This document shows, piece after piece, positions 5,193-33,753 of a stretch of 38,756 bases of DNA. This DNA is from a virus. Under the pieces are notes generated by a model. That model made no database searches, was not told where the DNA came from, and saw nothing but the letters and a program-made list of their open reading frames with translations. The translations under genes were made by a program, and so were the position numbers. Numbering within the stretch: position 1 is the first letter of the stretch; each line of letters opens with the position of its first letter. The stretch covers positions 1 to 38,756 of the IMG/VR virus record IMGVR_UViG_3300017987_000186, one strand, 5' to 3'.

Positions 5193-6820
5193 TGAATCTA
5201 CTTGATAAAGCCATCTCGGTCCTTTCGCCACTTTGGGCAATGAAGAGAGGCAGGGCAAGACAAGCGCTTGCCCTGCTTGATTCTTCGTATAAAGGCGCAT
5301 CGCGCAATACAAGAGCACTTGCAACGTGGTACGCATCATCCGGTAGTGCCAATACGGATCTTGCGCCAGGCACGCGCAAAACGCTTATGCACCGCTCGCG
5401 TGATGCTTACCGTAATTGTCCGCTTGGGCGTGCCGCAGTGCTTAGGCCGACAGCAAACGTTATCGGCACCGGCCTGAAATTCCACAGCAATGTTGATTAC
5501 AAAACGCTCGGCATCACTGCCGAGCAAGGAAAAGAATATAGTCAGCAGATCGAACGCGAGTTTAATTATTACGCCTCTACCCCGGACGAATGCGACTTCG
5601 ACCGCCAACACGATTTTTACCAATTGCAGTATCACGCTTTCTTCTCTTCTCTCCTTTCCGGTGATTCCATAACTTTGACTCCGATGATCAGACGGCCAGG
5701 ATGCCTATATAACTTGAAATTCCAGGTTATAGAGGCTGATCGGCTTGATTCTCCGCAAGGTGATAACGTGCCGCACGAAAAAATCAAGGATGGTGTGGAG
5801 CTTGATAAAAATGGTGTTCCTGTGGCTGTCTGGATACGAGAAACACATCCCGGGGAGTATTTGTCAAGCTATGAAAAGCGGTATAGCTGGAAACGCAAGC
5901 CAATATTTGGAAGTAGAACGGGCAGACGTCGCGTGATGCATCTTTTTAAGCAAGAACGCCCTGGTCAGGTACGCGGCGAACCGTTTCTTGCTCCGATATT
6001 GAACGATCTTAAGCAATGGGACCGCTACAGTGATAGCGAGATGATGTCCGCTGTTATATCAAGCTATTTTACGACGTTTGTCACTTCTCCAGATCCGAAC
6101 GCTATAGATGGCTTGAATCTTATGGCGCAAGAGCCGGATGACGGGCATGATGCGGTAGAGCCTTACGCAAGCTCAGCAGAAGAGATTCGCATGGGGCCGG
6201 GTGCTGTTTGCGGATTGCAGCCGGGGGAAGAAGTTAAATTTGCTAATCCTTCACGGCCAAACGCGCAGTATGAACCGTTTTTGTCTGTTAAGGCCAAGGA
6301 AATGGGGGCCGCAACAGGCGTTCCATTCGAGGATTTGATGCTTTATTTTACCTCTTCGTACTCAGCCGCTCGGGGGGCCCTCTTAAAAGGGTGGCAGTTT
6401 ACGAAAGAACGTCGAAAATTGACCGACACGAAATGGTGTCGACCTGGTTTTTTGCTTTGGCTGGATGAAGCGGTTGCAATCGGACGTTTGAAGCTTCCGA
6501 GCTATGGCGACCCAGTTAAACGGCGTGCTTATGCGAAAGGGTTGTTCGTGGGTGATGCGAGAGGTGCAATTGACGAGGTAAAAGAAATCGATGCAGCCAT
6601 GAAACGTATTGAGCTAGGCGTTTCTAACCGTCACATCGAAACCGCCAACCTTATGGGGCTTGACTGGGAAGATGTTGACGATGTTTTAGCCATGGAAGAG
6701 GCAAGATTACAGGAGCGCAAGCCAAAACAGCCGATTTTGGACGGACAGGAACAAGAAGAGGATAAGGAAGATGCCGGAGACGACAGAGAAAAAAAAGATA
6801 ACGATTCCGACGATACATAA
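5192..6820 (+). CDS. Portal protein, lambda gpB family
   Basis: This 542-residue protein forms the dodecameric channel at the head vertex. Family hallmarks are the early segment RSRDAYRNCPLGRAAVLRPT followed by NVIGTGL (about 60-95), the conserved acidic region SAEEIRMGPGAVCGLQPGEE (about 327-346) and the C-terminal SYSAARGALLKGWQFTKERR (about 390-410). The last 30 residues are very acidic (EQEEDKEDAGDD). GGAG lies at a proper distance from the ATG. The 3' end overlaps the protease gene by 50 bases. Confidence 0.92.
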   Translation: MNLLDKAISVLSPLWAMKRGRARQALALLDSSYKGASRNTRALATWYASSGSANTDLAPGTRKTLMHRSRDAYRNCPLGRAAVLRPTANVIGTGLKFHSNVDYKTLGITAEQGKEYSQQIEREFNYYASTPDECDFDRQHDFYQLQYHAFFSSLLSGDSITLTPMIRRPGCLYNLKFQVIEADRLDSPQGDNVPHEKIKDGVELDKNGVPVAVWIRETHPGEYLSSYEKRYSWKRKPIFGSRTGRRRVMHLFKQERPGQVRGEPFLAPILNDLKQWDRYSDSEMMSAVISSYFTTFVTSPDPNAIDGLNLMAQEPDDGHDAVEPYASSAEEIRMGPGAVCGLQPGEEVKFANPSRPNAQYEPFLSVKAKEMGAATGVPFEDLMLYFTSSYSAARGALLKGWQFTKERRKLTDTKWCRPGFLLWLDEAVAIGRLKLPSYGDPVKRRAYAKGLFVGDARGAIDEVKEIDAAMKRIELGVSNRHIETANLMGLDWEDVDDVLAMEEARLQERKPKQPILDGQEQEEDKEDAGDDREKKDNDSDDT

Positions 6821-8006
6821 CACACCGTTATTGATATCAAAATCCGGATTCGATGACATGTTGCTTAAAGCGCGGTGTGAGGCAGAAGTCAAGGCGTTTG
6901 CCGACAATGACGATGAGTTTTTGTCATTGTTTCCCGCGCCGAATGTAATTGGCAATACTGCTGTTTTGGGCGTTTCCGGGACTATTTCGCTTCGTGCGTC
7001 ATGGTGGCAATTGTTTTTTGGTGGAACATCGATCGATGTATTGACAAAACATCTTAAAGTGTTGGTTGCAGATGACAGTATAAGACGGATCGTTTTAGAT
7101 GTCGACTCGCCCGGCGGATATGTTGACGGCGTTGATGTGTTCGCGCAAGCTGTGTTTGATGCGCGAGAGAAAAAAGAAATCGTTGCGATGGTAAACCCCA
7201 TGTGCGCAAGCGCGGCATACTGGATTGCAAGCGCAGCACATGAAATATACATCACTTCGGGAACATCGATTACTGGCAGCATTGGCGTTATTATCTCACA
7301 TGTCGATTACTCGAAGATGCTTGAAGGCGATGGCGTTAAGGTTACAGAGATTACCGCAGGTAAATATAAAAACATCGCATCAAGTCATAAGCCGCTTTCG
7401 AAGGAAGGCAAAGAAGAATTACAGGCACAAGCCGATTATATATACTCTCTATTCGTCAATGATGTGGCAAAACACCGTAACAAAACGGTAGATGAAGCGC
7501 TTGCCATGGCGGATGGAAGGATTTTTTTGGGTCGACAGGCTGTAGATATCGGCTTGGCCGACGGATTTAAAACGATGAGTGACCTTTTGGAGGACAATGA
7601 TTTGCCCGATAAAGAGAAAACGCCTGTCGTTTCATTGGCGTACTTGAAGGAAAACAATCCCGATTTGCTCGCTTCGATCAAAGAAGAAGCGTACAAGGAC
7701 GGTTTTGAAAAAGGTAAAGCCGAAGGAAACGAGGCAGGAATCAAAGCAGAGAGAGAGCGTGTGTCTAAAGTTAGCTCTCTCTCGCGAAAAGGTTATGAGA
7801 ACATCATAACAAAAGCCATAACAGAAGGCAATACGCCAGAACAAGCGGCAATGGCTTTGTGGAAGGAAAGCGAAAACCGAGGGTCGACCGCAAACCTCGA
7901 AAATATGAAAGCAGACTCCACACAAGCGAAAACCGAGAAAACCGAAGACGAACAACCGTCAAGGCTAGCTGGCCTTCGTGCCGGCGCAGGCATCAGAAAG
8001 GAGTAA
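6771..8006 (+). CDS. Capsid maturation protease, S49 (SppA-like), with scaffold-like tail
   Basis: Residues 60-280 form an S49 serine protease: DVDSPGGYVDG at 111-120, the catalytic serine in PMCASAAYW (Ser147) and a lysine in ITAGKYKN (Lys198 or Lys200). This matches lambda gpC and other prohead proteases. Residues 300-411 are charged and helical and may act as an internal scaffold, as Nu3 does in lambda, possibly with a nested start. AAGGAAG precedes the chosen ATG. The gene begins inside the portal gene. Confidence 0.88.
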   Translation: MPETTEKKKITIPTIHNTPLLISKSGFDDMLLKARCEAEVKAFADNDDEFLSLFPAPNVIGNTAVLGVSGTISLRASWWQLFFGGTSIDVLTKHLKVLVADDSIRRIVLDVDSPGGYVDGVDVFAQAVFDAREKKEIVAMVNPMCASAAYWIASAAHEIYITSGTSITGSIGVIISHVDYSKMLEGDGVKVTEITAGKYKNIASSHKPLSKEGKEELQAQADYIYSLFVNDVAKHRNKTVDEALAMADGRIFLGRQAVDIGLADGFKTMSDLLEDNDLPDKEKTPVVSLAYLKENNPDLLASIKEEAYKDGFEKGKAEGNEAGIKAERERVSKVSSLSRKGYENIITKAITEGNTPEQAAMALWKESENRGSTANLENMKADSTQAKTEKTEDEQPSRLAGLRAGAGIRKE

Positions 8007-16224: not shown

Positions 16225-18158
16225 TCAAGCGTTTTGAACAAATCAAAGAATCTGTCCTTAATGAATTTGTTGGGGTACTTCTCCCTCATATCATAGAAGT
16301 CGGAAACAAGTTGCTTGACGTTTGGCGCAATAACAGTTCTTATGTTAAGGCGTTTTTTATCGTTGCTGCGAACGTTATCAATCAGTTGTTTTCTATCATT
16401 GAAAAAGCTGTGCAATTTGCAATTAAAGAGCCTAAAAAGGCGATGGATAAGCTTGTTTCAACCTTAGAAATTACCTGGGAAATCATTGTTGCCTCTTTTG
16501 ATTTGTTTATGGATGTTGTCTATAATCGCTTGCTTATGTTCATGTCAAACCTTGGCATTCTGATAGTTAGCTTTCCGATTGAATTTGTAAAGCAGATGTT
16601 TGTTGAGATCAAAAGGGTAGTGTCAACTAATCTCGATAATCTATGGTTAATCATTCAAAGAAAATTCATCTCTTTTCTGGGCGATAAAAGCAAACGAAAG
16701 ATACTTGATTTCTTTTCGCCCGGTGTTTCCATGTCGCTTGGCCCGCTTTTAAAGCATGCTGATGTGTTAGAAAAGAAAATTACTAACAAATTGAGAAAAA
16801 GCGGTGTAGGTGTTTACGAGTGGGGAAACGTTTTCAAAAAAACGCTTGTTGATGTCAAAAAAAATGCCGAAGAGCTTGGAAAAGCATTGGAGCATGTAAC
16901 GACGTATGGGTTATCTGACAAAGCTTCTGTTGATGCCTACAAAACAAAGATAAGCAATTTGACCGAACAGCTAAAGCAGAATTTTGCCGGCACGCCGATG
17001 GAGGCCGAAGCGTTTAAAATCAAGGAGCTTATCTCCCAAAACGCTTTTGATGATGCGCTTAAGAAGGTGGAAGAGTTAAAGCAAAAGTGGATCAAGAGTA
17101 TTGACGACATCGGCAAGAAGCAACTGGAGCTATCAGAGCAAAACAAGAATAACGTTATCGATCATGAAGCGCTTGCAGCGGCAGATATGAAGCGTAAGGA
17201 AGAAGCGCTACACAAGGAAATGCTTGAAACGGTGGATCAGCACGCGAAGCTTGCGGAATTGCGCGCACGGTCAAGCGAAGATACCGCATTGAAGCATGAA
17301 GCGGAACTTGCACAACTACAAGCTAAACATATGCGTGAGCTTGAATCTTACAAAGACATGAAGTTGATGCAGGCGCACTTCGATGAAATTCTTGCATTGC
17401 AGAAAGAAGAGAAAGAAAAGTTACTCGAAAAGCAGCAAATCGAAGTGTTCCATGGGTATCTATCCAATGCAAAAAATGTAACAGGCGGTGTCGCAAATCT
17501 CTTTACGCAATTAAGCGAAGTTGTCGGCAAAGAAAACAAAAAAATGTTCTTGGTTAACAAGGCTGTGAGCATGGCAACAGCAATTGTTAATGTTGCGCAA
17601 GGCGTTACAAAAGCACTTGGCCAAGGCGGTATCATGGGAATAGCTATGGGTGCCTTGGTTGCTGCCGCTGGTGCTATACAGGTAACAAAGATTGCTGCAC
17701 AGCAACCGCAAGGCTTCGCAGAAGGCGGTTTTGTCGCGCAAGGTACAGGCGAGAAGGCCGACAATGTCCCTGCCTGGCTATCACATGGTGAGTTTGTAAT
17801 CCCTGCTGAACGTGTGCGACAAGTCGGTGTTGGCTTCCTGGAGGGCATTAGGCAAGGCAGGAGTCCACTTGCAGCGGCATTGACCGGCAATGTGGGCGCG
17901 GCATTTAGAAATTTGCGTACAAGCTTGCCGGGCATTGCCGCTCCGGCGTTTGCTGGCGGGGGCTCTGTTAGCGCTCAGCCGACGATTAAAACAGACGGCG
18001 GCGAGAAGCAAACGGCGGATAAAAACATTAACATAATGAATATTTTAGAGCCCAATTTATTTGATCAATGGGCTACAACGCCAGCCGCGGAACAGGCGAT
18101 CTTGAACATGATTAGCGCTAATCCCTACGAATTTCAGGCTAGGATGAGCGGCACATGA
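16212..18158 (+). CDS. Tape measure protein, C-terminal portion (-1 frame)
   Basis: Reading one base back from the A6 run gives TSVLIKRFEQIKESVLNEFV and continues for 648 residues, for a full tape measure of about 1664. The first ATG or TTG with independent potential is the TTG at 16311, without a ribosome site. The content is typical of tape measure C-termini: long coiled coils (about 16850-17450 nt), the hydrophobic stretch GIMGIAMGALVAAAGAIQVT, and the hallmark GFAEGGFV...DNVPAWLSHGEFVIP. Either one A is missing (error or mutation), or the phage uses programmed frameshifting here. Confidence 0.8.
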   Translation, partial: TSVLIKRFEQIKESVLNEFVGVLLPHIIEVGNKLLDVWRNNSSYVKAFFIVAANVINQLFSIIEKAVQFAIKEPKKAMDKLVSTLEITWEIIVASFDLFMDVVYNRLLMFMSNLGILIVSFPIEFVKQMFVEIKRVVSTNLDNLWLIIQRKFISFLGDKSKRKILDFFSPGVSMSLGPLLKHADVLEKKITNKLRKSGVGVYEWGNVFKKTLVDVKKNAEELGKALEHVTTYGLSDKASVDAYKTKISNLTEQLKQNFAGTPMEAEAFKIKELISQNAFDDALKKVEELKQKWIKSIDDIGKKQLELSEQNKNNVIDHEALAAADMKRKEEALHKEMLETVDQHAKLAELRARSSEDTALKHEAELAQLQAKHMRELESYKDMKLMQAHFDEILALQKEEKEKLLEKQQIEVFHGYLSNAKNVTGGVANLFTQLSEVVGKENKKMFLVNKAVSMATAIVNVAQGVTKALGQGGIMGIAMGALVAAAGAIQVTKIAAQQPQGFAEGGFVAQGTGEKADNVPAWLSHGEFVIPAERVRQVGVGFLEGIRQGRSPLAAALTGNVGAAFRNLRTSLPGIAAPAFAGGGSVSAQPTIKTDGGEKQTADKNINIMNILEPNLFDQWATTPAAEQAILNMISANPYEFQARMSGT

Positions 18159-20261: not shown

Positions 20262-20740
20262 CACCATATTTTGCCATACCAGAAAACAAAAGCCGCTACG
20301 AAAAAATCCTGCGCAGCTGGATTGGAACTCCGTATAGGCATGCTACCGTGCTAAAAGGCAGGGCGGCGGATTGCGTGTTGTTTGTTGCGGCAACATTGGT
20401 TGAACTTGGCGTTTTGCCGCAGTTGCCGAATATGGGCTACTACTGGCGAGACTGGCCGGTGCACGGAAGAGAAGAATTCCTACTTAAAAGTATCGACACC
20501 TACCGAAAAGATTTGATCGATGGTTTGTTTTTGGAACGTTTTGAGGCCGACGAAAAGGAAGTGATTTGGGGCGATTGGATGATTTTCAAAATGTTTACAA
20601 AATTTTCAAATCATAGTGTTGTATATCTCGACGACAACCAAATTTTACACGCGGTTGTTAACGATAAAGTCCGCATTGAGCAGTATAGCAAAGGCTATAG
20701 AAACAGGCACACATACACGTATAGGCTACACCTAAAATGA
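20258..20740 (+). CDS. NlpC/P60 tail peptidase, gpK-like
   Basis: The 160-residue protein has the NlpC/P60 papain-like core. The catalytic cysteine is in GRAADCVLFV (Cys39), the histidine in FSNHSVVYLDD (His119), and a third polar residue probably in ILHAVV (His131). Such enzymes sit at the tail tip and cut peptidoglycan peptides during DNA entry. In lambda this corresponds to gpK. It overlaps the hub gene by four bases and the next gene by an ATGA. No signal peptide is present, so it is a virion component and not a free endolysin. Confidence 0.88.
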   Translation: MTPYFAIPENKSRYEKILRSWIGTPYRHATVLKGRAADCVLFVAATLVELGVLPQLPNMGYYWRDWPVHGREEFLLKSIDTYRKDLIDGLFLERFEADEKEVIWGDWMIFKMFTKFSNHSVVYLDDNQILHAVVNDKVRIEQYSKGYRNRHTYTYRLHLK

Positions 20741-23133
20741 TCGTTGATGTTCTATTGACAACTCTATTGTATACGTTCGCGGCGGTGATCTATCATCAAA
20801 GCGTTTTCGTTTATCATGCTGGCATTGTTTCTCTCATTGTGTTAGGCGTTACCGTAGCGCTCACGGTTGCAATGACCGCATACATGATGATGTCGCAAGG
20901 ATCGCAGGGCGCGGCACATCAAGACGATGCGGCGCCGGCCACGATGGACAGCCTAAACATGACACAAGTCCGCGAGGGTACAACCGTAGCGCTCACATAC
21001 GGCACGGTCAAGTTAGCCGGTAACCTAATATGGTACGGCAATTTTCGCAGCAAAGCGCAGTATCAAGAGTCCAGCATGGGCGGCGGTAAAGGCATGGGCG
21101 GCGGTGGCGGTGGCGGGACGCAACGCTATATATCAGGATACAAATACTACATCGACGCCTGGCAAGCGATTTGCCATGGTAAGGTGAGTCTTGAAACAAC
21201 CTATGTTGCAGACAAAGAACGAACCGTTTCGGCTAATTCGACGACGTGGAACGATGGAACGATGGACACCTACTCAGACCGACCAGGCGATAACGCCAAT
21301 AGGCTGTTAGGTGTAGCTCATATTTTCTGGTACAAATGGTACCTCGGGAAAAACAAAACGTACATGCCGACAGTGCATTATGTCGTGCAGAAAGAGCTAG
21401 ACGACACCGTCATTACAAACGCAAATCACGCCGACGGCAGCAGCAATCCGGCAGCAATAATATATGACCTGATGGTTAATCACAGCGGTTTTCTATCAGA
21501 TGATTTAGATATTGATGAGGCGTCGTTTCAGGCGGCGGCGGATTATTGGGAGGACAGGGATTACGGGCTTAATCTTGTGTTTAACAGCCAGATGGATTTT
21601 GCTCAGATGGTGCGCAAGGTGTTGGGATACGTCGACGGCATATTGTATCAGGATTTAGAGGGACAATGGAAATTAAACCCTTATGATCCCACGGCTACGG
21701 GCACGGTGACGCTTTCCAAAAGTGATTTTCTTGATTTCAAGATGGCCAGACCATCTTATGAAGGCACACCCAACGTCTTTATCGGCAACTACACCGATAA
21801 AGACATGGACTATACACGCCGATCTGTAGCGTGGCGCAACGACGCGAACGTTGCCTTTGTAGGCGAAAAGCGCAAGACGATAGATTTGTCAGGATTTCAC
21901 AATCTGACCATCGCCTCAAAACGCATCGCAGAAATAGGAAAACGTTTGAGCTACCCGGCTGCAAGTATTGAATTTACTACAAATTTAGGGTTTCATAGTT
22001 TGGAGTTGGGCGATGTTATTGGTGTCAGCCACTCCGATTATGGCATTGTTTCGATGGCTTTTCGTGTCGTATCGGTGAGCCTGGAGGAGATCGATAAAAA
22101 TCAGCTTAAATTTAAAGCCATCCAGCAGGTTGAAGCGATGTTTGACGACGAGCACTGGACCAGCGGCGGTAGCGCTGGAAGCGGTATAAATACAGTCGTT
22201 ACACCGTTTGTCAACCAACGGTTATTTGAGTTGCCGTTTTCGCGTTCGTGGGGGCATGACCCGGCCTTTTTGGTGCTTGCCGCGAGAATCGGAGAAGAAA
22301 CCGGCTTAAGTTTGATGTTCTCTTACGACAATGTTGATTACAACCTTGTTGATAATTTTAGCGGTTTTTCTCAGCACGGAACACTTGATGAGGCGTACCC
22401 GATAGACACTAAAACGATCGATGATGAAAATGGAATTTTGTACACTCCGACAAGGGAAGACCCTGAATTTGCAACGATTTCAAGGTCTGAACTGTTTGCC
22501 ACATCCCGCGTTATCATCATAAATGATGAAATGATGACGTTTCAGACCGTGACGCCGGAGGGGGATGACGCATATAGGTTGACAGGTATTATTCGTAATC
22601 GATTGCACACGCCACGGCAGGCGCACTCTGTTGACGATGATGTGTGGATTACAAATATTAGCATGCAAAACATTTTGCCGGCGGTCAAATCTGGCGATTT
22701 CTACGTAAAATTTGTGCCGTACATGTTGGAGACTGAGGGGGAAGCCGCATCGGCAACCGCCATACATGTTACAACGGAGTGGAAAGGCAAGACGCCGTGG
22801 GGCGCTGGTAGATTGGTTGGTGTTCGAACCGGGACAAGTTTAGCCTTAACGATTTGGCCATATACGCAGGATTACAGCGGATCGGGAACAGAGCCGGAAG
22901 ACTCGTACACCGATCAAGGACCAGAATTTCCGCATGAAGGCGATTTTGAATTGGTCTACGGCAGCACAACCGAGTACACAGAATTGACACAGAAAACAAT
23001 AACGATACCGGTAGGCGCTACAACGGTGGTTGTAAAAATGCGCAATTACGGAATGTTGAGCAGGTCATTGACGCTCAGCGTCGGTGCCGGTGACGGTACA
23101 TATATAGCAAATCAGGACGTGACACATGCCTAG
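20737..23133 (+). CDS. Central tail tip / host specificity protein, gpJ-like
   Basis: This 798-residue protein begins with two hydrophobic segments (about 5-25 and 29-54), as in lambda gpI/gpJ-type and GTA megatron N-termini. It then shows the conserved tip motif VREGTTVALTYGTVKLAGNLIWYGN (residues about 77-100) and a glycine run (GMGGGGGGG, about 118-127). The body is beta-rich, with a fibronectin- or receptor-domain-like C-terminus (YTELTQKTITIPVGATTVVVKM). It completes the L-K-J style tip module and probably sets receptor binding. Confidence 0.82.
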   Translation: MIVDVLLTTLLYTFAAVIYHQSVFVYHAGIVSLIVLGVTVALTVAMTAYMMMSQGSQGAAHQDDAAPATMDSLNMTQVREGTTVALTYGTVKLAGNLIWYGNFRSKAQYQESSMGGGKGMGGGGGGGTQRYISGYKYYIDAWQAICHGKVSLETTYVADKERTVSANSTTWNDGTMDTYSDRPGDNANRLLGVAHIFWYKWYLGKNKTYMPTVHYVVQKELDDTVITNANHADGSSNPAAIIYDLMVNHSGFLSDDLDIDEASFQAAADYWEDRDYGLNLVFNSQMDFAQMVRKVLGYVDGILYQDLEGQWKLNPYDPTATGTVTLSKSDFLDFKMARPSYEGTPNVFIGNYTDKDMDYTRRSVAWRNDANVAFVGEKRKTIDLSGFHNLTIASKRIAEIGKRLSYPAASIEFTTNLGFHSLELGDVIGVSHSDYGIVSMAFRVVSVSLEEIDKNQLKFKAIQQVEAMFDDEHWTSGGSAGSGINTVVTPFVNQRLFELPFSRSWGHDPAFLVLAARIGEETGLSLMFSYDNVDYNLVDNFSGFSQHGTLDEAYPIDTKTIDDENGILYTPTREDPEFATISRSELFATSRVIIINDEMMTFQTVTPEGDDAYRLTGIIRNRLHTPRQAHSVDDDVWITNISMQNILPAVKSGDFYVKFVPYMLETEGEAASATAIHVTTEWKGKTPWGAGRLVGVRTGTSLALTIWPYTQDYSGSGTEPEDSYTDQGPEFPHEGDFELVYGSTTEYTELTQKTITIPVGATTVVVKMRNYGMLSRSLTLSVGAGDGTYIANQDVTHA

Positions 23134-23916: not shown

Positions 23917-23928
23917 GTGGAGGTAGAC

Positions 23929-24684
23929 ATGGGAAAGAACGAAAAAGATTTGCTGGATAAAACAGCGGACATGTGGCGAGAGCCTGTCAAGGGCGTGTTC
24001 GATATCATCGAACGCATAAATATGTTGATAGCGTTTTTCGGTGACAAATGGCCGAAGATACAAGGGATGATCGATTGGGTCAAGACGGTTTGGCCTGAGC
24101 TGTTAGCCTTGAAAGACAAGGTAATCGTTATCTGGACCAAGATCCTTTATTTCATTAAGGAGGTGTTTCGCCAGCTTGAACCGGGCATCTACAGCAAGGT
24201 TGTTGCGGAGTTAAAGGAAAAAGACAAGTGGCCGAAAGATCCGAGATCGTTTCCATTTTTTGAGTTTTTCACTAATCCAGAAATCATAAACGGAGCCGTA
24301 ACAATCCTTGTGAGCGTGTTTAATGGTATCGCTTCGTTGTTCGGTGGTGGTGATAAATCCAGCACACCTAAAGGAGTAGCGCGCGATTCTAAAGGCGTTT
24401 TGGCGACGTTGCAAAGCATCGAGTCGGCAATTGGATTGCTGCCTGATCTGTTGGCTAAGTCCAAGGAGCGTGGGGATAAGAGCATTGATGAGCTTATCGC
24501 GTTTATGGAGAAAAACTTTCTTAAGGATGACGGCCTGAAAACGGTAATCAACGAAGCGGTGGGTGATGCGGTAGAAGTTGGAGTTGCCGCTGGCATGGAA
24601 GACGCTTTCCATCGCGGCAGATTTGAATCCACATCTGAGTGGGTGCCTAACGAAAACGGGCACGAGGACGATGAGGACGAGTAA
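23929..24684 (+). CDS. Unknown protein at head of cargo block
   Basis: I chose the ATG at 23929 because GGAGG stands five bases before it; this gives 251 residues. The protein is mainly helical. Trp- and Ile-rich amphipathic segments (about 35-75: WPKIQGMIDWVKTVWPELLA, IWTKILYFIKEVF) may lie on a membrane. A short hydrophobic run (INGAVTILVSVFNGIASLFGGG, about 120-141) is followed by a helical half with KSIDELIAFMEKNF. The tail is very acidic (NGHEDDEDE). I do not recognise a family. Its position suggests co-expression with the signalling genes. Confidence 0.55.
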   Translation: MGKNEKDLLDKTADMWREPVKGVFDIIERINMLIAFFGDKWPKIQGMIDWVKTVWPELLALKDKVIVIWTKILYFIKEVFRQLEPGIYSKVVAELKEKDKWPKDPRSFPFFEFFTNPEIINGAVTILVSVFNGIASLFGGGDKSSTPKGVARDSKGVLATLQSIESAIGLLPDLLAKSKERGDKSIDELIAFMEKNFLKDDGLKTVINEAVGDAVEVGVAAGMEDAFHRGRFESTSEWVPNENGHEDDEDE

Positions 24685-24686
24685 AA

Positions 24687-24878: not shown

Positions 24879-25251
24879 AGCGGAACAACAAAAATCTGAT
24901 GAAGAGCAAGAATGCTCTATCCAAGATAAAGCTAAAGTGGCGTTTGTCCGTTTAGCTGAAAGCTACCCTACACCGGACGATGAGGACGATGAGGACAACG
25001 AAAGCCGGTTAAGCGGCGTGCTTGACTTTTTGGAAAGCGCTTACTATATCCTTGAAATTATCTCGCATCTATCGTCAATGTCTTTAGGGGTAGCGGTGAC
25101 GTGTCTTTTTATCCCAAACATGCCCAAAGGGCTGATAACATTTTTCATCTTGATCCTGTTTGCCGCATACATATTTTCGCAAAAATGTGTGTTTATCGTT
25201 TTCAAACAAAACCGTTCTACCGATTACACTGTAGTAAATCCGGGCATGTAA
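24832..25251 (+). CDS. Small membrane protein with acidic N-terminus
   Basis: The ATG has AGAGGACG upstream. Residues 1-63 are strongly acidic (Glu/Asp runs such as PDDEDDEDNE). Residues 66-125 contain two hydrophobic segments: YYILEIISHLSSMSLGVAVT into CLFIPN, and GLITFFILILFAAYIF. The short C-terminus is polar. This could be a holin-like protein or a membrane effector or anchor of the kinase-caspase system, since it lies two genes upstream of them. No family is recognised. Confidence 0.6.
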   Translation: MSDETELSLMETEKPEAEQQKSDEEQECSIQDKAKVAFVRLAESYPTPDDEDDEDNESRLSGVLDFLESAYYILEIISHLSSMSLGVAVTCLFIPNMPKGLITFFILILFAAYIFSQKCVFIVFKQNRSTDYTVVNPGM

Positions 25252-25252
25252 G

Positions 25253-26206
25253 ATGAGTTATCTTAAGCAAATCATAACCGATGATGACGGCAAGCGTCGC
25301 GTTAAAAGCACAATAGCGTTAACTGACAAATTTGATTTAGGCAAAGGCCATGGGTCCATCTTGCCGGGTACGCCTGGCGGATGGATGCTGCATTGCAATC
25401 ATGGTATACGATTTTGCGGTGCAAAATTTGGCAGCGGGAAAACTCGCATACATGACGAAAGTCTTATAGAGCTAGACACCGGTGAGTGCTATTTGTTTTT
25501 TGATGAGGATGAAGAGCTAACCAGGCGCAAAACCGCAGAGCTTAAGTTGTCCGTACCAGAAAAGGTGCGTGATCAATTGAGCAAACAGGAGCAAGTCAAG
25601 CTTCGCATTGAGATGCAAAAAGTAATTTCAGAAGCACCGAAAGACATGGAAGGTTTTGCTAAATTTTTCAATGCTTACATCCTTGCAACATATCATTTTG
25701 ACCGTGGCATTTTTTATGTGATCAGTGAGCGCACAGTGAACCGTGTATACAGGCGCGGCGAAAAGTCTATCAAGCGTAAAGTCTGCAAGACTAGCCTGCA
25801 ATCATTATCTAGCCGAACAGTCAACGCCGATATTGTCAAGTATGTCCCCCCTAAAAGCATCGCAAGAGATGTTTTAAACGGCGGCGGTGATGCAATCATA
25901 CGCTATCCTGATGAAGAGGAAGACGTTTCATTGTCCATTGTGGAGCGCAAAATACAGACTGTGATTTGCTATCCATGCTATGCCCGAGGTGGTCTAAAGC
26001 CGGTGTCTATCTACTATGTCGATTCGTTGAACGTTATCAAGCGTTTGGATGTTGAGAAGGTTTGTTTTTTATGTTCGCTTTTGGGGTCACAGGTTGACAG
26101 ATTGCTAAAGAAAAAAAGCGTTGCTACGGATGAAGAGAGCGAATTAAAAACACCCGTGCCACCATTGAAACAATTAAAATTCAGGGATGAAGATGAAATC
26201 GATTGA
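25253..26206 (+). CDS. FHA/GAF-like putative signalling protein
   Basis: This 317-residue protein has two regions suggestive of signalling domains. Residues 42-85 (GWMLHCNHGIRFCGAKFG, KTRIHDESLIELDTGECYLF) resemble the second half of an FHA domain. Residues 195-290 have a GAF-like core: SIVERKIQTVICYPCYARGG, then KPVSIYYVDS and KVCFLCSLLGSQVDRLL. FHA-GAF proteins often sit beside Hanks-type kinases, and here the kinase gene overlaps this one. The similarity is read by eye and weak for the FHA part, where the usual Gly-Arg and Ser-x-x-His residues are not evident. A helical segment (about 90-130) links the two. Confidence 0.45.
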   Translation: MSYLKQIITDDDGKRRVKSTIALTDKFDLGKGHGSILPGTPGGWMLHCNHGIRFCGAKFGSGKTRIHDESLIELDTGECYLFFDEDEELTRRKTAELKLSVPEKVRDQLSKQEQVKLRIEMQKVISEAPKDMEGFAKFFNAYILATYHFDRGIFYVISERTVNRVYRRGEKSIKRKVCKTSLQSLSSRTVNADIVKYVPPKSIARDVLNGGGDAIIRYPDEEEDVSLSIVERKIQTVICYPCYARGGLKPVSIYYVDSLNVIKRLDVEKVCFLCSLLGSQVDRLLKKKSVATDEESELKTPVPPLKQLKFRDEDEID

Positions 26207-27236
26207 CGCAATCTTAGGCATATTAGAGCGAAGCAAACGCAAGATTGACGGTAGATGGCAACCGACCGCAAGCGAACATTTCGTAAATCTTATTGAGCGC
26301 TGTTCTCCGAAGCTTAAATATGAAGCCGTGCTCGGCATGGGCACGGAGGCCTTTTTGTTTGTCGTAAAACATTTACCGCTCAACGCAAAAATGGTTATAA
26401 AGATACCCCGACCGCATCTGGCAACGCAGGCGGTAGAACGTTTTATTCGCACAGCGCGTACACTTGAAACGCTAGACAAGGATTGTTTTCCGAACGTCAA
26501 GGATCTTAACGAAGATCCGCTGTATTGCCTTTTGTCGTATTCGGATGGTGACACTTTGCGCGATTGGATCTGGTCATCGCGGTGGCGTTTCCATGCTGGC
26601 ATTGAGTTGTTTAGGCAGGTGTTAAACGCCGTGGCCATTTTGCACCGAGATGATATTGTTCATCGCGATTTGCGCATTGATAACATTTTGGTAATACCTG
26701 GCGGCAGGATCAAGGTTATCGATTTTGGATTGGCAAAAGCGATAACAGATGAAACGCTAACCATGGCGGAAACCGCACTAGGCAGTGTTGGATATAGCCC
26801 GCCAGAGCAGATAGATGACGCCTTGAGTGCTACAAAGGCCAGCGATATATTTACTCTGGGAAGAGTGTTTTATGTGTTGGCTGTCAGAGCCGAAGGCGTC
26901 CGTGTAAAGACTAAAATCAAGTGGAAAACAGAGTTGCTTTACGATGCCGGCTTGACGCAAGACGCAATTGATTTTTATCAAAAGGCGTGCAATTTTTATC
27001 CTGAAAAGCGTTTTCAAACAGGCGGTGAAATGTTGCAAGCATTAAACATGCTCTACAAACCTGAAAATCAAACCATCGGCGAAGAGATCGATAAACTAAA
27101 AGATATGTTCGTTTATTGTGATGGTCATCACGCGAGAACCGCGAGGATGGCCGGTAAGAAAACAGCTCAAGTACATCGTGAGCTAAACGCTATCAAGGCG
27201 AGGATGGCAAAAAAATGGCTTATATCCCGATATTAA
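26193..27236 (+). CDS. Hanks-type Ser/Thr protein kinase
   Basis: I prefer the ATG at 26193 (347 residues), with AGGG six bases upstream, over an ATG six bases earlier. The kinase core spans about residues 42-280: glycine loop GMGTEAF at 48-54, ATP lysine MVIKIP (Lys70), catalytic loop IVHRDLRIDNILV (Asp159, Asn164), DFG at 177-179, and a GYSPPEQ APE-type motif at 200-206. All catalytic residues are present. Arg161 replaces the lysine usual after HRDL in Ser/Thr kinases. No membrane segment or extracellular domain exists, so it is cytosolic. It overlaps the upstream FHA/GAF-like gene by 14 bases and the caspase gene by 22. Confidence 0.9.
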   Translation: MKSIDAILGILERSKRKIDGRWQPTASEHFVNLIERCSPKLKYEAVLGMGTEAFLFVVKHLPLNAKMVIKIPRPHLATQAVERFIRTARTLETLDKDCFPNVKDLNEDPLYCLLSYSDGDTLRDWIWSSRWRFHAGIELFRQVLNAVAILHRDDIVHRDLRIDNILVIPGGRIKVIDFGLAKAITDETLTMAETALGSVGYSPPEQIDDALSATKASDIFTLGRVFYVLAVRAEGVRVKTKIKWKTELLYDAGLTQDAIDFYQKACNFYPEKRFQTGGEMLQALNMLYKPENQTIGEEIDKLKDMFVYCDGHHARTARMAGKKTAQVHRELNAIKARMAKKWLISRY

Positions 27237-28009
27237 AAAGCGGCGTAACGCCGACATTGCCGGCAAAGCCACAAAACGCCGGCAAAAAAGATTGCTACGG
27301 TGCCGTGTTTCTCGGCATCGATAAATACAAGGTGAACAATCATTGGAACCTGCAAGGCTGTGTAAATGATTGCCACAACGTTATAAGCACAGTGCGTAAC
27401 AAATACAATGTCGATACCGTAAACGATGCCAAAAAATTGTTAGATTACGAGGCAACGAAAGCCAACACGTTAAACGCTCTGCGATGGATGGTCAACACCT
27501 ACAGGCGCGGAATATTTACTTTTTCGTGCCATGGTTCGCAGATACCCGATGAAAGCGAGCCTGACCGCAAAGCGGAAGTATTGATCACGACTGACCACCG
27601 GTGGGAAGATCCGCTTATCGACGATGAAATCAAAGCCATTGTCGAGCAAATGGACGAATGCGTGATCATTGCAGATTGCTGTCACGCTGAAGGCATTTCA
27701 CGCGGCGGCTGGATAGCCAAAAGCGTTGTATGCCCTGAAGGCGTTTGCATGCGTTTACCGCGTACAGTGCGCAATTTAGCGCATGTCAAAGAGCTGGCAG
27801 CTTGCAGAAGTGATCAGACAGCCAGCGAGCGATATATTGACGGCAAGCGGCAGGGCGTGTTTACATACACGCTTTGCAAAATATTGCGTGAGCATCCGGG
27901 CATAGCATTGCAAGATTTGCAAGCACGGCTGCGGGCAGAAATTGACGGGCAGACGCCTGTGATTACAGGCACCGGCTTGCTTTTAGAGCACGCCGGCATA
28001 TCAGCATAA
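27215..28009 (+). CDS. Caspase-fold cysteine protease (C14, metacaspase/orthocaspase type)
   Basis: The 264-residue protein is a complete p20-like caspase domain: YGAVFLGIDKY strand (28-38), LQGCVNDCHNVISTV (46-60), catalytic His106 in FTFSCHGSQ, and catalytic Cys156 in IIADCCHAEG. The conserved ELAACRSDQTASE and GVFTYTLCKIL blocks follow. These are the standard signatures of bacterial orthocaspases, which cut after Arg or Lys. There is no signal peptide or transmembrane segment. The start overlaps the kinase gene by 22 bases, so the two are probably translated together. The kinase may control the protease or be its substrate. Confidence 0.9.
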   Translation: MAYIPILKSGVTPTLPAKPQNAGKKDCYGAVFLGIDKYKVNNHWNLQGCVNDCHNVISTVRNKYNVDTVNDAKKLLDYEATKANTLNALRWMVNTYRRGIFTFSCHGSQIPDESEPDRKAEVLITTDHRWEDPLIDDEIKAIVEQMDECVIIADCCHAEGISRGGWIAKSVVCPEGVCMRLPRTVRNLAHVKELAACRSDQTASERYIDGKRQGVFTYTLCKILREHPGIALQDLQARLRAEIDGQTPVITGTGLLLEHAGISA

Positions 28010-28027
28010 CGAAAGGAGGTGGCAATC

Positions 28028-29608
28028 GTGGCAGACGCAGAAATAGAAATTTTTGCAAGCGGGAAAAAAAGCTTTAGCGTAGATTTTGCGGCAGATGAAA
28101 CAGTGAAAACAATCAGCATTAAGCCTGATTTTAGCAAAAATGCTATCATGCCGCTGATAAATAGATTGCACTTAGCAATCCCAAACTGGACGAACAATGT
28201 CACGCTAGATGTTGCATTTACAGACAGCGAAGATGGCAATGATAAGGTGCTAGACAACATGTACACCGCAGAAGCGCGCAACCAAAGCGATGCGCAGCTC
28301 ACAGACATGGATATACCTGTAGGCGGTGAAGTGATATGCACGCTTACATTGTCAGGCGCGCCCGGCAATGCTGGAAGCATTGATGGTACGCTGTATTCGT
28401 CTTTTAGCCGAGGGGGGAACAGCAGTAGCGGCAATGCTGTTCAATGGGAGGGTAGCGGCTATATAGATTTTGACAGCATTGCGGCGCCCGGCAATCCAGA
28501 CGCTGGCACATTGCGCCTTTACAATGAGAGCGGCGCGTTTAATGTGCGCAATGCCGCCGGCACTGTGATCAATTTGCTCACAGACGCGATCGGCGCTAAT
28601 GCGGCATTGTCGAACCTGTCCAGCGTGGCGATTAACACGGCATTGGTGAGTGATACAGACGACACCGACGATCTCGGCACGTCGTCGATCGGTTGGCGCT
28701 CGTTGTACCTGTCGTCATCGATTCTCGGCACGGTTGCAGACGGCGCGAACACCGCGCTGACATTTGGAAATTCTACCGCGCTTACCACGGCGGGTGGAAA
28801 AATTGCGTCGTTTACGTCGGATGCTGGCGTGACCGAGCGGGCGTATATAGACTACCTCGGGAAATACGTCGGTAGCGCGGTGAGGGCAGACGCCGGCAGT
28901 GCGGCGGCGCCGTCTATAGCTATCGGTGCAGATGGCACGGGCATTTATGGCGGTAGCGTTATTGATTTTGCGATCGGAGGTTCAAATGCAGGACGAATCG
29001 AATCAGGCCTAATGCGTTTCGCTGAATACCGACCGCGAAGCGTTGCTTCGTTGAAATTAAACGGGTTATATCAAGATTCGACAACGGCAGTTGCAGCAAA
29101 AATAGGAAACGTTTATTCTTTGTCAACCACAGGCGCAAAAATAGCGTCGTTTTTTAGCGATAACTTCATCACCGAGCGGGCCTACATTAACTACCTCGGG
29201 AAAATTGCAGCATACGGCGGATTGTCCGCAGAATCCAGCACAGGCGGAGGAGAGGCACGAAAACATAGTGAGGCGACTGTAACGCTCTCCGGCGCGTCAA
29301 GTACCTGCCATGTCAACGTACCAATCGGCGCAAAGATAACCGGGTGGCAGTACAACACCGAAACCGCCGTGATATCAGGAGATGGCGCAACGTCTTTAGA
29401 TATCGCTTTCTCGGGAGGGTCAACAACAAACCTTGCTACAGGGCAAGCGTTTGCACAGAATACCAAAGATGGTGCGCTGATTACCCCGGAAATTATCAGT
29501 AGTGAGGCTGATATTGCAGTCACGCCCGACAGCGGGACGTTTTCAGGCGGAGTGTTGCGGTTTATCGTTTATTATTCAGAGATTACCGCGTTAGCGGATG
29601 TCGCATAG
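28028..29608 (+). CDS. Tail fibre protein
   Basis: The start is GTG at 28028, set by a strong AAAGGAGG at 28012-28019, giving 526 residues. The N-terminal 130 residues form a beta domain. The middle carries the fibre phrase YIDFDSIAAPGNPDAGTLRLYNESGAFNVRN, and two repeats follow: GKIASFTSDAGVTERAYIDYLGK and AKIASFFSDNFITERAYINYLGK. Glycine- and alanine-rich strands make up the rest. This is typical of modular phage fibres. The very strong ribosome site fits high expression of a virion protein and marks the right edge of the cargo block. Confidence 0.75.
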   Translation: MADAEIEIFASGKKSFSVDFAADETVKTISIKPDFSKNAIMPLINRLHLAIPNWTNNVTLDVAFTDSEDGNDKVLDNMYTAEARNQSDAQLTDMDIPVGGEVICTLTLSGAPGNAGSIDGTLYSSFSRGGNSSSGNAVQWEGSGYIDFDSIAAPGNPDAGTLRLYNESGAFNVRNAAGTVINLLTDAIGANAALSNLSSVAINTALVSDTDDTDDLGTSSIGWRSLYLSSSILGTVADGANTALTFGNSTALTTAGGKIASFTSDAGVTERAYIDYLGKYVGSAVRADAGSAAAPSIAIGADGTGIYGGSVIDFAIGGSNAGRIESGLMRFAEYRPRSVASLKLNGLYQDSTTAVAAKIGNVYSLSTTGAKIASFFSDNFITERAYINYLGKIAAYGGLSAESSTGGGEARKHSEATVTLSGASSTCHVNVPIGAKITGWQYNTETAVISGDGATSLDIAFSGGSTTNLATGQAFAQNTKDGALITPEIISSEADIAVTPDSGTFSGGVLRFIVYYSEITALADVA

Positions 29609-32104: not shown

Positions 32105-33034
32105 TCAAAATCCGTGTGAGCTTTTCCAATCCTTGATAACTTTCCCAAGCGCTCTTAATCCTCCCACACTCAAAAAGTCAAACGCCTTTTCGCCATTAGT
32201 ACCGACGTGCATTGAAATTTCAACGAGCGCCTTGTGTATTTCATCCGGACTCAATTCATCGATCAGGCCGAATTTTTCAAGCTCTTTCGGGCTTGCGTCA
32301 ATGTCCCATTTCGGCGGCTCCGGCATTTCATCCCTGCCGCTGTATCCTCTCGCTTGTGCTTCGCTAAGATCACCTTTCTCAAAGTGTCGGACGTCCGACA
32401 CTTTTTGTTTTGCCTCTCTCACTGAGTCGGCTTTCAAAATCTCATCTTGCTTTTTCGGATCCTTTTCCTTAGCTATTAGGATCAATTTTGATATGTCGGA
32501 CGTCCGACACTTTTCCCGGTTGCTCTCAGGGATCCGTAATATCGATATCAATTCACTCACCCGGCTCCGGCTTAATCCTACCATCCCGGCAAGCTCTTTT
32601 TGAGAGATTTTCCGCCCTTCACTTTCCTCTAATCGCGTTCTGAGGTCGGACAGGGCTTCGGCACGGTCAAACGGCCACAAGTCTTCTCTCATTTCGTTAT
32701 CTAAGAATTGATTGATTTTCAACTCCTCATCATTCATAGAGGGGAAAATCACGCAAGGCAATTCATCAAGACCGGCGTTAACGGCCGCTTGATAGCGCCG
32801 ATGTCCATTTATGATTTTATATCGATCCTTGCTTACCAGCACCACAAGAGGCGTTTTGACTCCCACAGATTTGACCGAGTCGGCCAAATCTTCCATGCTA
32901 TCATCGTTGATTGACCGGCGGTAATTTGTTTCATCGGGATCCAGCTTCCGAATATCAAGCATTCGGTAAACGGGTTTTGTGGGCTTGCCGTTTTTGCCGA
33001 ACATCCCGAAAGATATATCACCTAGTTTTGACAT
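32105..33034 (-). CDS. parB: ParB partition protein
   Basis: The 309-residue protein has the ParB N-terminal domain (about 22-115) with the nucleotide box NGHRRYQAA (GHRR in place of the usual GERR). A central HTH follows (about 146-172: ISQKELAGMVGLSRSRVSEL), and the helical C-terminus ends VEISMHV...VIKDWKSSHGF. It follows ParA on the same strand with a 13-base overlap and a GAGGAG ribosome site. Two palindromes of the TGTCGGACGTCCGACA type lie inside its coding region and encode CRTSDI and VSDVRHF, so candidate binding sites are embedded in the gene. Confidence 0.9.
   Translation of the reverse strand: MSKLGDISFGMFGKNGKPTKPVYRMLDIRKLDPDETNYRRSINDDSMEDLADSVKSVGVKTPLVVLVSKDRYKIINGHRRYQAAVNAGLDELPCVIFPSMNDEELKINQFLDNEMREDLWPFDRAEALSDLRTRLEESEGRKISQKELAGMVGLSRSRVSELISILRIPESNREKCRTSDISKLILIAKEKDPKKQDEILKADSVREAKQKVSDVRHFEKGDLSEAQARGYSGRDEMPEPPKWDIDASPKELEKFGLIDELSPDEIHKALVEISMHVGTNGEKAFDFLSVGGLRALGKVIKDWKSSHGF
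32381..32404. repeat. parS-like palindrome inside parB (24-bp perfect)
   Basis: The core TGTCGGACGTCCGACA is extended to 24 perfectly paired bases. Like chromosomal parS, it is a 16-base palindrome opening TGT and closing ACA with CG at the centre. It lies in coding sequence and encodes KVSDVRHF in parB. Confidence 0.8.
32494..32509. repeat. parS-like palindrome inside parB (second)
   Basis: An exact TGTCGGACGTCCGACA copy lies 107 bases from the first, centre to centre. It encodes KCRTSDI, so the same DNA motif is read in a different frame from the other copy. Confidence 0.8.
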
Positions 33035-33753
33035 CTGTTGATTCTCCTCAGTGTTTCTTTTGCAAAATCCTCATAGCATTTTGCACCGGTTGACCTTGGG
33101 GCATATTCAAAAATGCTCTTTCCATGACTCGGAGCCTCTTCAAGTTTGACGTTTTGGCGAATTTCGGCCTTGTAGAGCATTCCGCCTAAGTGTTTTTTAT
33201 AGAGGGCTAAAACTTCATTTGTGACACGTTTTCGCCGGTCAACCATGGTCGGCAACACTCCCAAAAGGTTTTTAGCGTCCCAATTGCTAAGGATTTGTTG
33301 TAATCCCTCTAATGAAAGATATTGAGGCGTAACCGGGATGATGACCGCTTGAGAGAGTGTAATAGCGGCCACAGATAAACATGAAAAAGAGGGAGGCGTA
33401 TCTATTATAATATAGTCATAGTTGCCGCCGACGTCATTTATGATCGTCTCAAGAGCGTTACTATTTGCTCCGATCACCAAATCAATACCGGCAAGGCCGA
33501 TACCGGCCGGGATGATGTCCCCGCAAGACGTTTTAACGATTGCTTTTTTAGGCGTCCTGTCCTGTAAAATAATCTCATCAAGCGTGATGTCGGGAGTATT
33601 AACGCCGACATGTTTTGAGAGGGAGGCTTGAGAGTCAACGTCAAGCATGAGGACGTTTTTCTTTTTCTTGACATGGAGATAGGCGGCCAGGGCGGCGGCG
33701 GTTGTTGTTTTGCCTACTCCGCCTTTGCTACATACTAATGATATAATAATCAT
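33022..33753 (-). CDS. parA: ParA partition ATPase
   Basis: The 243-residue protein is a small (type Ib-like) ParA. The deviant Walker A is SKGGVGKTTTAA at 9-20. VLMLDVDSQASLS follows at about 34-46, then YDYIIIDTPPSFS (about 111-123). There is no N-terminal HTH, so operon autoregulation probably depends on ParB or another protein. It is coupled to parB by overlap. The upstream 75 bases carry three parS-like sites. Confidence 0.93.
   Translation of the reverse strand: MIIISLVCSKGGVGKTTTAAALAAYLHVKKKKNVLMLDVDSQASLSKHVGVNTPDITLDEIILQDRTPKKAIVKTSCGDIIPAGIGLAGIDLVIGANSNALETIINDVGGNYDYIIIDTPPSFSCLSVAAITLSQAVIIPVTPQYLSLEGLQQILSNWDAKNLLGVLPTMVDRRKRVTNEVLALYKKHLGGMLYKAEIRQNVKLEEAPSHGKSIFEYAPRSTGAKCYEDFAKETLRRINRCQN

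Follow-up and report, generated by a model that had tools for sequence, protein, structure and literature searches.

A recurrent phage gene block encoding a divergent Hanks-type kinase and an overlapping orthocaspase-type protease beside a putative tail fibre gene

Organization of the kinase-caspase region

The DNA analysed here, referred to as the window, is a stretch of 38,756 nucleotides from the viral record IMGVR_UViG_3300017987_000186. It contains the late genes of a lambda-type phage, closely packed on the plus strand, in the order terminase, portal, ClpP-like protease, decoration, capsid, tape measure, tail assembly and J-like hub, followed by the kinase-caspase region (Table 1). The initial annotation of this region described a Hanks kinase with its Lys, HRD, Asn and DFG residues intact, an orthocaspase with an intact His-Cys dyad, a 22-base overlap between the two genes, and a location between the tail-tip genes and the tail fibre gene. 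The residues of both enzymes were found as described, and the coordinates place the overlap at 27215-27236. The tail-tip assignment was likewise borne out, by the match of the hub gene to phrog_1101, whereas the "tail fibre" label rests on position and repeat-like sequence, the gene having no Pfam match.

Table 1. Features of the window referred to in the text
Feature	Position	Strand	Description and evidence
ClpP-like head protease	6771-8006		The phage's own
J-like tail hub/tip gene	20737-23133	+	phrog_1101 (1.6e-64); outside the mobile block
P0004	24832-25251	+	139 aa, two predicted TM segments close together (hydropathy); first gene of the block
P0003	25253-26206	+	Sensor-like protein; beta-rich N-terminal region (possibly FHA-like), then putative GAF fold (homologues, AF2/Foldseek)
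P0001	26193-27236	+	Hanks-type protein kinase, 347 aa (PF00069, residue table, orthologues)
P0002	27215-28009	+	Orthocaspase/metacaspase-type protease, 264 aa (PF00656, AF2/Foldseek, conserved residues)
Shine-Dalgarno sequence AAAGGAGG	28012-28019		Strong
Putative fibre gene	28028-29608	+	N-terminal ~150 aa homologous to the gene following the L219 and L220 caspases
ParA/ParB-like genes	32105-33753	-	

The start of the putative fibre gene was placed at GTG 28028 rather than at 28019 because of the Shine-Dalgarno sequence upstream. With phmmer, this gene matched the genes following the caspase in two other phages, L219 (5e-21) and L220 (6.6e-15), with identities of 41% and 37%, respectively, across the aligned N-terminal region.

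The genes of the block are closely spaced, with short overlaps or gaps, and a consensus scan of the region, of a kind that a promoter of another type would escape, gave no promoter-like site above chance. Because of this packed arrangement and the lack of an above-chance promoter, expression of the block is most simply viewed as late and lytic, which counts against a purely lysogenic role in defence.

A repressor gene and the ParA/ParB-like genes lie on the minus strand and no clear integrase was found in the window, which together suggest a phage-plasmid lifestyle. When the tail hub was used to search for a host, one of 297 Thermodesulfobacteriota genomes gave a strong prophage match (E value of 2.9e-230) and one of 399 Pseudomonadota genomes gave a weak one, so that Thermodesulfobacteriota is only a suggestion as the host phylum. 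A search with ParA revealed no host. Close to the terminase gene, at 1102-2190, the window also encodes a phrog_11143 protein, part of which is ATPase-like and part acetyltransferase-like.

The orthocaspase-type protease

P0002 matched PF00656 with an E value of 1.1e-17, far above the cut-off. Its AF2 model (pLDDT 81, pTM 0.80) had as top Foldseek matches AtMCA9 (TM 0.70) and the structure of the bacterial protein GSU0716. The dyad, His106 and Cys156, and two acidic residues, Asp52 and Asp154, are kept in the caspases of L219 and L220 as well as in that of the window. Forty-nine compact caspases from phages and bacteria were aligned, the window sequence among them and that of L220 not, and D52, H106, G107, D154 and C156 were invariant (49/49). 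The position of G107 is occupied by Arg in the L220 caspase, with the dyad and D52/D154 still present. By analogy with TbMCA2, D52 and D154 are predicted to form an acidic S1 pocket with a preference for a basic P1 residue, and on the strength of these residues P0002 is predicted to be an Arg/Lys-specific caspase. One feature overlooked in the first reading is that Cys105 precedes the catalytic His in the window caspase, where the other 48 of the 49 sequences have Gly. In the tree, most caspases of the further IMG/VR phages described below formed a clade with compact ones from bacteria (SH-aLRT 95); the window caspase was on a long branch, and its position there is unreliable.

The Hanks-type kinase

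P0001 matched PF00069 over residues 44-274 with an E value of 2.9e-25, above the cut-off. There is a second in-frame ATG at 26187, and the start at 26193 was favoured because of an AGGG about 7 nt upstream. The catalytic residues are intact, namely Lys70, HRD157-159 (Asp159), Asn164 and DFG177-179 (Asp177), and no TM segment was found in the protein. The glutamate of the alpha-C helix, however, is missing from P0001, which has Thr87 instead, a substitution also overlooked at first. The corresponding residue is A in L219, S in L220, S in L221 and T in L225; all others in the comparison, phage or cellular, have E. Owing to this loss, P0001 is placed in a divergent, possibly atypical kinase-fold subfamily, and its status as an active canonical kinase is open to doubt. 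Among PADLOC models the best match was the defence kinase PD-T4-6 (7.5e-37), and many kinase models scored alike.

The kinases linked to a caspase, those of the window, L219 and L220, all keep the Lys, HRD, Asn and DFG residues. In contrast, the related kinases without a caspase have lost catalytic residues, Lys being replaced by Asn in L221 (5923-6975) and DFG by DFS in L225 (5593-6909). Among the kinases compared, loss of Lys or DFG was confined to these two.

The membrane and sensor-like proteins upstream

The predicted TM segments of P0004 start at residues 76 and 101. Two-TM genes of similar size lie upstream of the sensor or kinase gene in L219, L220, L221 and L225; significant sequence homology was found solely between L219 and L220 (5e-13), and the correspondence of the window P0004 to these proteins rests on position and topology. 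Short GAGGACGATGAGGAC-like runs at 24660-24685 and 24975-24997 correspond to acidic DEDDED stretches in the gene at 23917-24684 and in the P0004 gene.

Homologues of P0003 precede the kinase in L219 (8.7e-17), in L221 (3.6e-8) and, detected via L219, in L220. The L221 homologue matched Pfam FHA above the cut-off (1.3e-5) and GAF just under it (2e-4); no Pfam FHA match was obtained for P0003 or its L219 and L220 homologues, and P0003 itself had no Pfam match over the cut-off. Its AF2 model was of modest confidence (pLDDT 62). In Foldseek, the PDB structure that this model matched best was a GAF domain (3.4e-5), and GAF or GAF-containing proteins made up the majority of the top 50. P0003 is thus putatively a GAF-domain protein, with an N terminus that is possibly a degenerate FHA-like domain. 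A Dicer_platform identity (0.023, below the cut-off) was dropped in favour of GAF.

Recurrence and mobility of the block

Single-sequence pattern scans with the kinase, caspase, hub, capsid and P0003 returned matches from the same virus only, and the caspase profile scan overlooked L219 and L220, whose motifs deviate from the patterns used. The view that the kinase-caspase pair was unique to one virus was overturned by the kinase profile scan, which detected homologues of P0001 in L219 (4.9e-57) and L220 (6.8e-50), each followed by an overlapping caspase gene (1.7e-31 and 9.2e-23, respectively). Identity to the window proteins was 36% and 35% for the kinases of L219 and L220 and 30% for both caspases. 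The recurrence that the initial annotation had left to be checked in phage collections was therefore found, with the same order and overlapping genes. The pair it described is genuine but incomplete, in that the order common to the three phages comprises the two-TM gene, the gene of the putative GAF-domain protein, the kinase, the overlapping caspase and the homologous fibre gene. Retention of this order and of the overlaps at ~30-36% identity indicates a unit that has been conserved for long.

The full block was found in just these three phages. L221 carries a TM gene, a sensor gene and a kinase gene and no caspase; L225 has a TM gene and kinase behind a hub homologous to that of the window, again with no caspase. 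The head genes of L220 and the window are homologous (portal, 5.5e-124; capsid, 3.5e-37), and similarity between the tail genes of the two was undetectable. Since L220 has the block together with tail genes of no detectable similarity, the block appears to move as a unit. Conversely, relatives of the window tail hub were found in L132-L138 and L225, in none of which a caspase was seen, and the window-type tail is common to L132-L138 and the Thermodesulfobacteriota prophage. The block is absent from L132, L133, L135 and the prophage, which are those with several kilobases covered beyond the hub. Because phages sharing the tail exist without it, the block is better regarded as exchangeable accessory cargo than as a core structural function. 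The initial annotation would have counted absence of the pair from all related phages against its proposal; such absence holds for these tail-hub relatives and not for phages at large, and it accordingly bears on cargo status and does not refute the pair.

A similar fibre N-terminal domain was present in one Thermodesulfobacteriota genome region where the kinase, caspase and sensor were undetectable, and a search with the fibre domain gave no second cassette in 395 Thermodesulfobacteriota genomes. L132, one of the tail-hub relatives without the cassette, encodes a phrog_20754 "protease" (16479-17351) about 4 kb behind its hub.

Caspases and kinases in other genomes

About 30 further IMG/VR phage records (L018-L047) carry a PF00656 caspase, mostly compact (about 270-370 aa), and none has an adjacent kinase. 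A PF00069 kinase was present in 2 of the 30, one match being weak and the strong one lying ~270 kb away. We sought a neighbour conserved among phage caspases overall and found none; the contexts differ, with genes for an HNH endonuclease, exonuclease, Holliday junction resolvase, tail chaperone or tRNA nucleotidyltransferase nearby. Caspases are thus recurring phage cargo. Of the kinase-bearing records searched, 38 of 40 had no caspase.

The nearest relatives of the kinase found in Thermodesulfobacteriota are encoded beside PP2C or in trypsin-FHA/kinase/FHA cassettes. In L296, L297 and L298 the latter consist of three genes, encoding a trypsin-FHA protein, a Hanks kinase and a 166-aa FHA protein with a Zn ribbon (this third gene being checked in L296 and L297). 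These provide a cellular precedent for kinase-protease cassettes.

Possible function of the block

The presence of a caspase, a kinase, a sensor-like protein and a membrane protein that have stayed together through deep divergence points to proteolytic signalling run by the phage. In the reading that we prefer, and whose chances we consider evenly balanced, the block is a mobile moron whose four proteins would form a single membrane-proximal, phospho-regulated protease relay inside the infected cell. The GAF and membrane proteins would sense a signal and switch the kinase, which would license the Arg/Lys-specific caspase through phosphorylation or binding. Once licensed, the caspase would cut proteins of the host or of a rival phage, leading either to cell shutdown or death, as in superinfection exclusion or abortive infection, or to timed takeover and lysis. 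What counts for such a relay is the long-conserved order of the unit, its mobility and close packing, its phage-like codon usage, the protease dyad and S1 residues, the kinase core kept in the caspase-linked kinases and the predicted GAF fold. Precedents are the Thermodesulfobacteriota cassettes, the 933W kinase and the orthocaspase MaOC1 discussed below. Against it, the loss of the alpha-C Glu in all cassette kinases may mean a weak kinase or a pseudokinase, and the presence of the fibre gene next to the block in every case would suit a role in the virion as well. Abortive infection, which the initial annotation proposed along with host takeover and cleavage of virion proteins, is a possible role of the cassette; its place in the late operon, where no promoter is obvious, makes expression in a lysogen less likely, and a defence role that needs such expression is weakened accordingly. 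A more specific proposal, tentative and in our judgement somewhat improbable, is that the four genes make up an entire sensor-kinase-caspase switch for death or takeover, which an event such as superinfection would trigger inside the infected cell and which would cleave specific host or phage proteins. If true, phages would carry their own counterpart of the immune pathways that activate caspases.

Dedicated assembly proteases are common in phages, and the location of the block in the late operon, with a homologous fibre gene next to it in all three phages, would suit a function in virion maturation, in which the adjacent fibre or further tail proteins would be trimmed by the caspase at a late stage, with the kinase controlling or modifying those same structural proteins. 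This is unlikely, however, given that the phage has its own ClpP-like head protease, that trimming needs neither a membrane protein nor a GAF sensor, and that the similar fibre N-terminal domain in Thermodesulfobacteriota lies in a region where no kinase, caspase or sensor could be detected. We are equally doubtful that the kinase, having little or no catalytic activity, is a scaffold that by binding the caspase recruits or activates it, with no phosphorylation cascade. The T, A or S found in place of the alpha-C Glu in the three caspase-linked kinases favours such a scaffold, as does the frequent catalytic disruption of kinases in conflict systems (PMC7159879), but these three have kept the residues equivalent to Lys70, Asp159, Asn164 and Asp177, suggesting selection for catalysis.

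That the kinase and caspase are independent morons that became neighbours by chance would agree with the many phages having one without the other, as set out above. It is nevertheless very unlikely, as three phages at 30-36% identity share the gene order, the overlapping frames and the flanking genes. Least credible of all is an assembly chimera or a piece of host DNA within the phage contig, which the initial annotation had raised. The source is indeed metagenomic, with no isolate, but a second IMG/VR record, of 50,640 bp, includes the whole 38.7-kb window with a single 1-base gap as the difference, the codon usage of the block agrees with that of the phage (r of 0.88 and 0.81), and the block is found again in L219 and L220.

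Comparison with known systems

Caspase-type proteases of bacteria are discussed chiefly as host cell-death or defence enzymes. The initial annotation knew of no phage system of this composition, and we likewise found no phage kinase-caspase cassette described in the open-access library searched; the cassette is real and recurring, and apparently undescribed within that library. A 2021 paper (PMC8008677) counts just two characterized protein kinases of phages, those of T7 and 933W. The latter, Stk of prophage 933W, is cited there as causing abortive infection upon HK97 superinfection. By this description it resembles the cassette in being a protein kinase carried as phage cargo, and differs in that the account in PMC8008677 gives it no caspase, GAF or TM partner and has it acting in lysogens, whereas the cassette sits in a late operon with no evident promoter.

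The L296-L298 cassettes are similar in having adjacent genes for a kinase, a phospho-reader domain and a protease. They differ in being cellular, in encoding a trypsin-type rather than a caspase-type protease, and in having bigger kinases with the alpha-C Glu intact (checked in L298). Signalling cassettes of the kinase/FHA/protease kind are already known, and the phage block would be a variant of them in a phage setting. The Caulobacter CARD-NLR-like system LypABC is comparable as a peptidase-containing, immune-like system that controls lysis releasing phage-like particles (GTA), but it is host-encoded and NLR/ATPase based, and no kinase is named in the abstract of PMC13236601. PMC7159879 describes conflict systems of bacteria that contain caspases and kinases, many of the latter disrupted. 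In a Rhizobium caspase-trypsin-serpin-kinase locus (L014), a few genes likewise separate a caspase from a Ser/Thr kinase, but the genes are plasmid-borne and cellular, the caspase is larger, and no GAF or fibre genes are annotated in the stretch examined. PMC3501461 mentions a Rhizobium protease/inhibitor operon as well as phage-related metacaspase operons of Clostridium botulinum.

P0002 itself shares with the prokaryotic orthocaspases and metacaspases of PF00656 (GSU0716, yeast Yca1 and AtMCA9) the fold, the His-Cys dyad, the S1 acidic residues and a p20 plus p10-like half in one chain. It is set apart from them in being phage-encoded and long-branched, with a Cys before the catalytic His and a kinase gene ahead of it. 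Within this family, the orthocaspase MaOC1 cleaves an antitoxin (PMC7935541).
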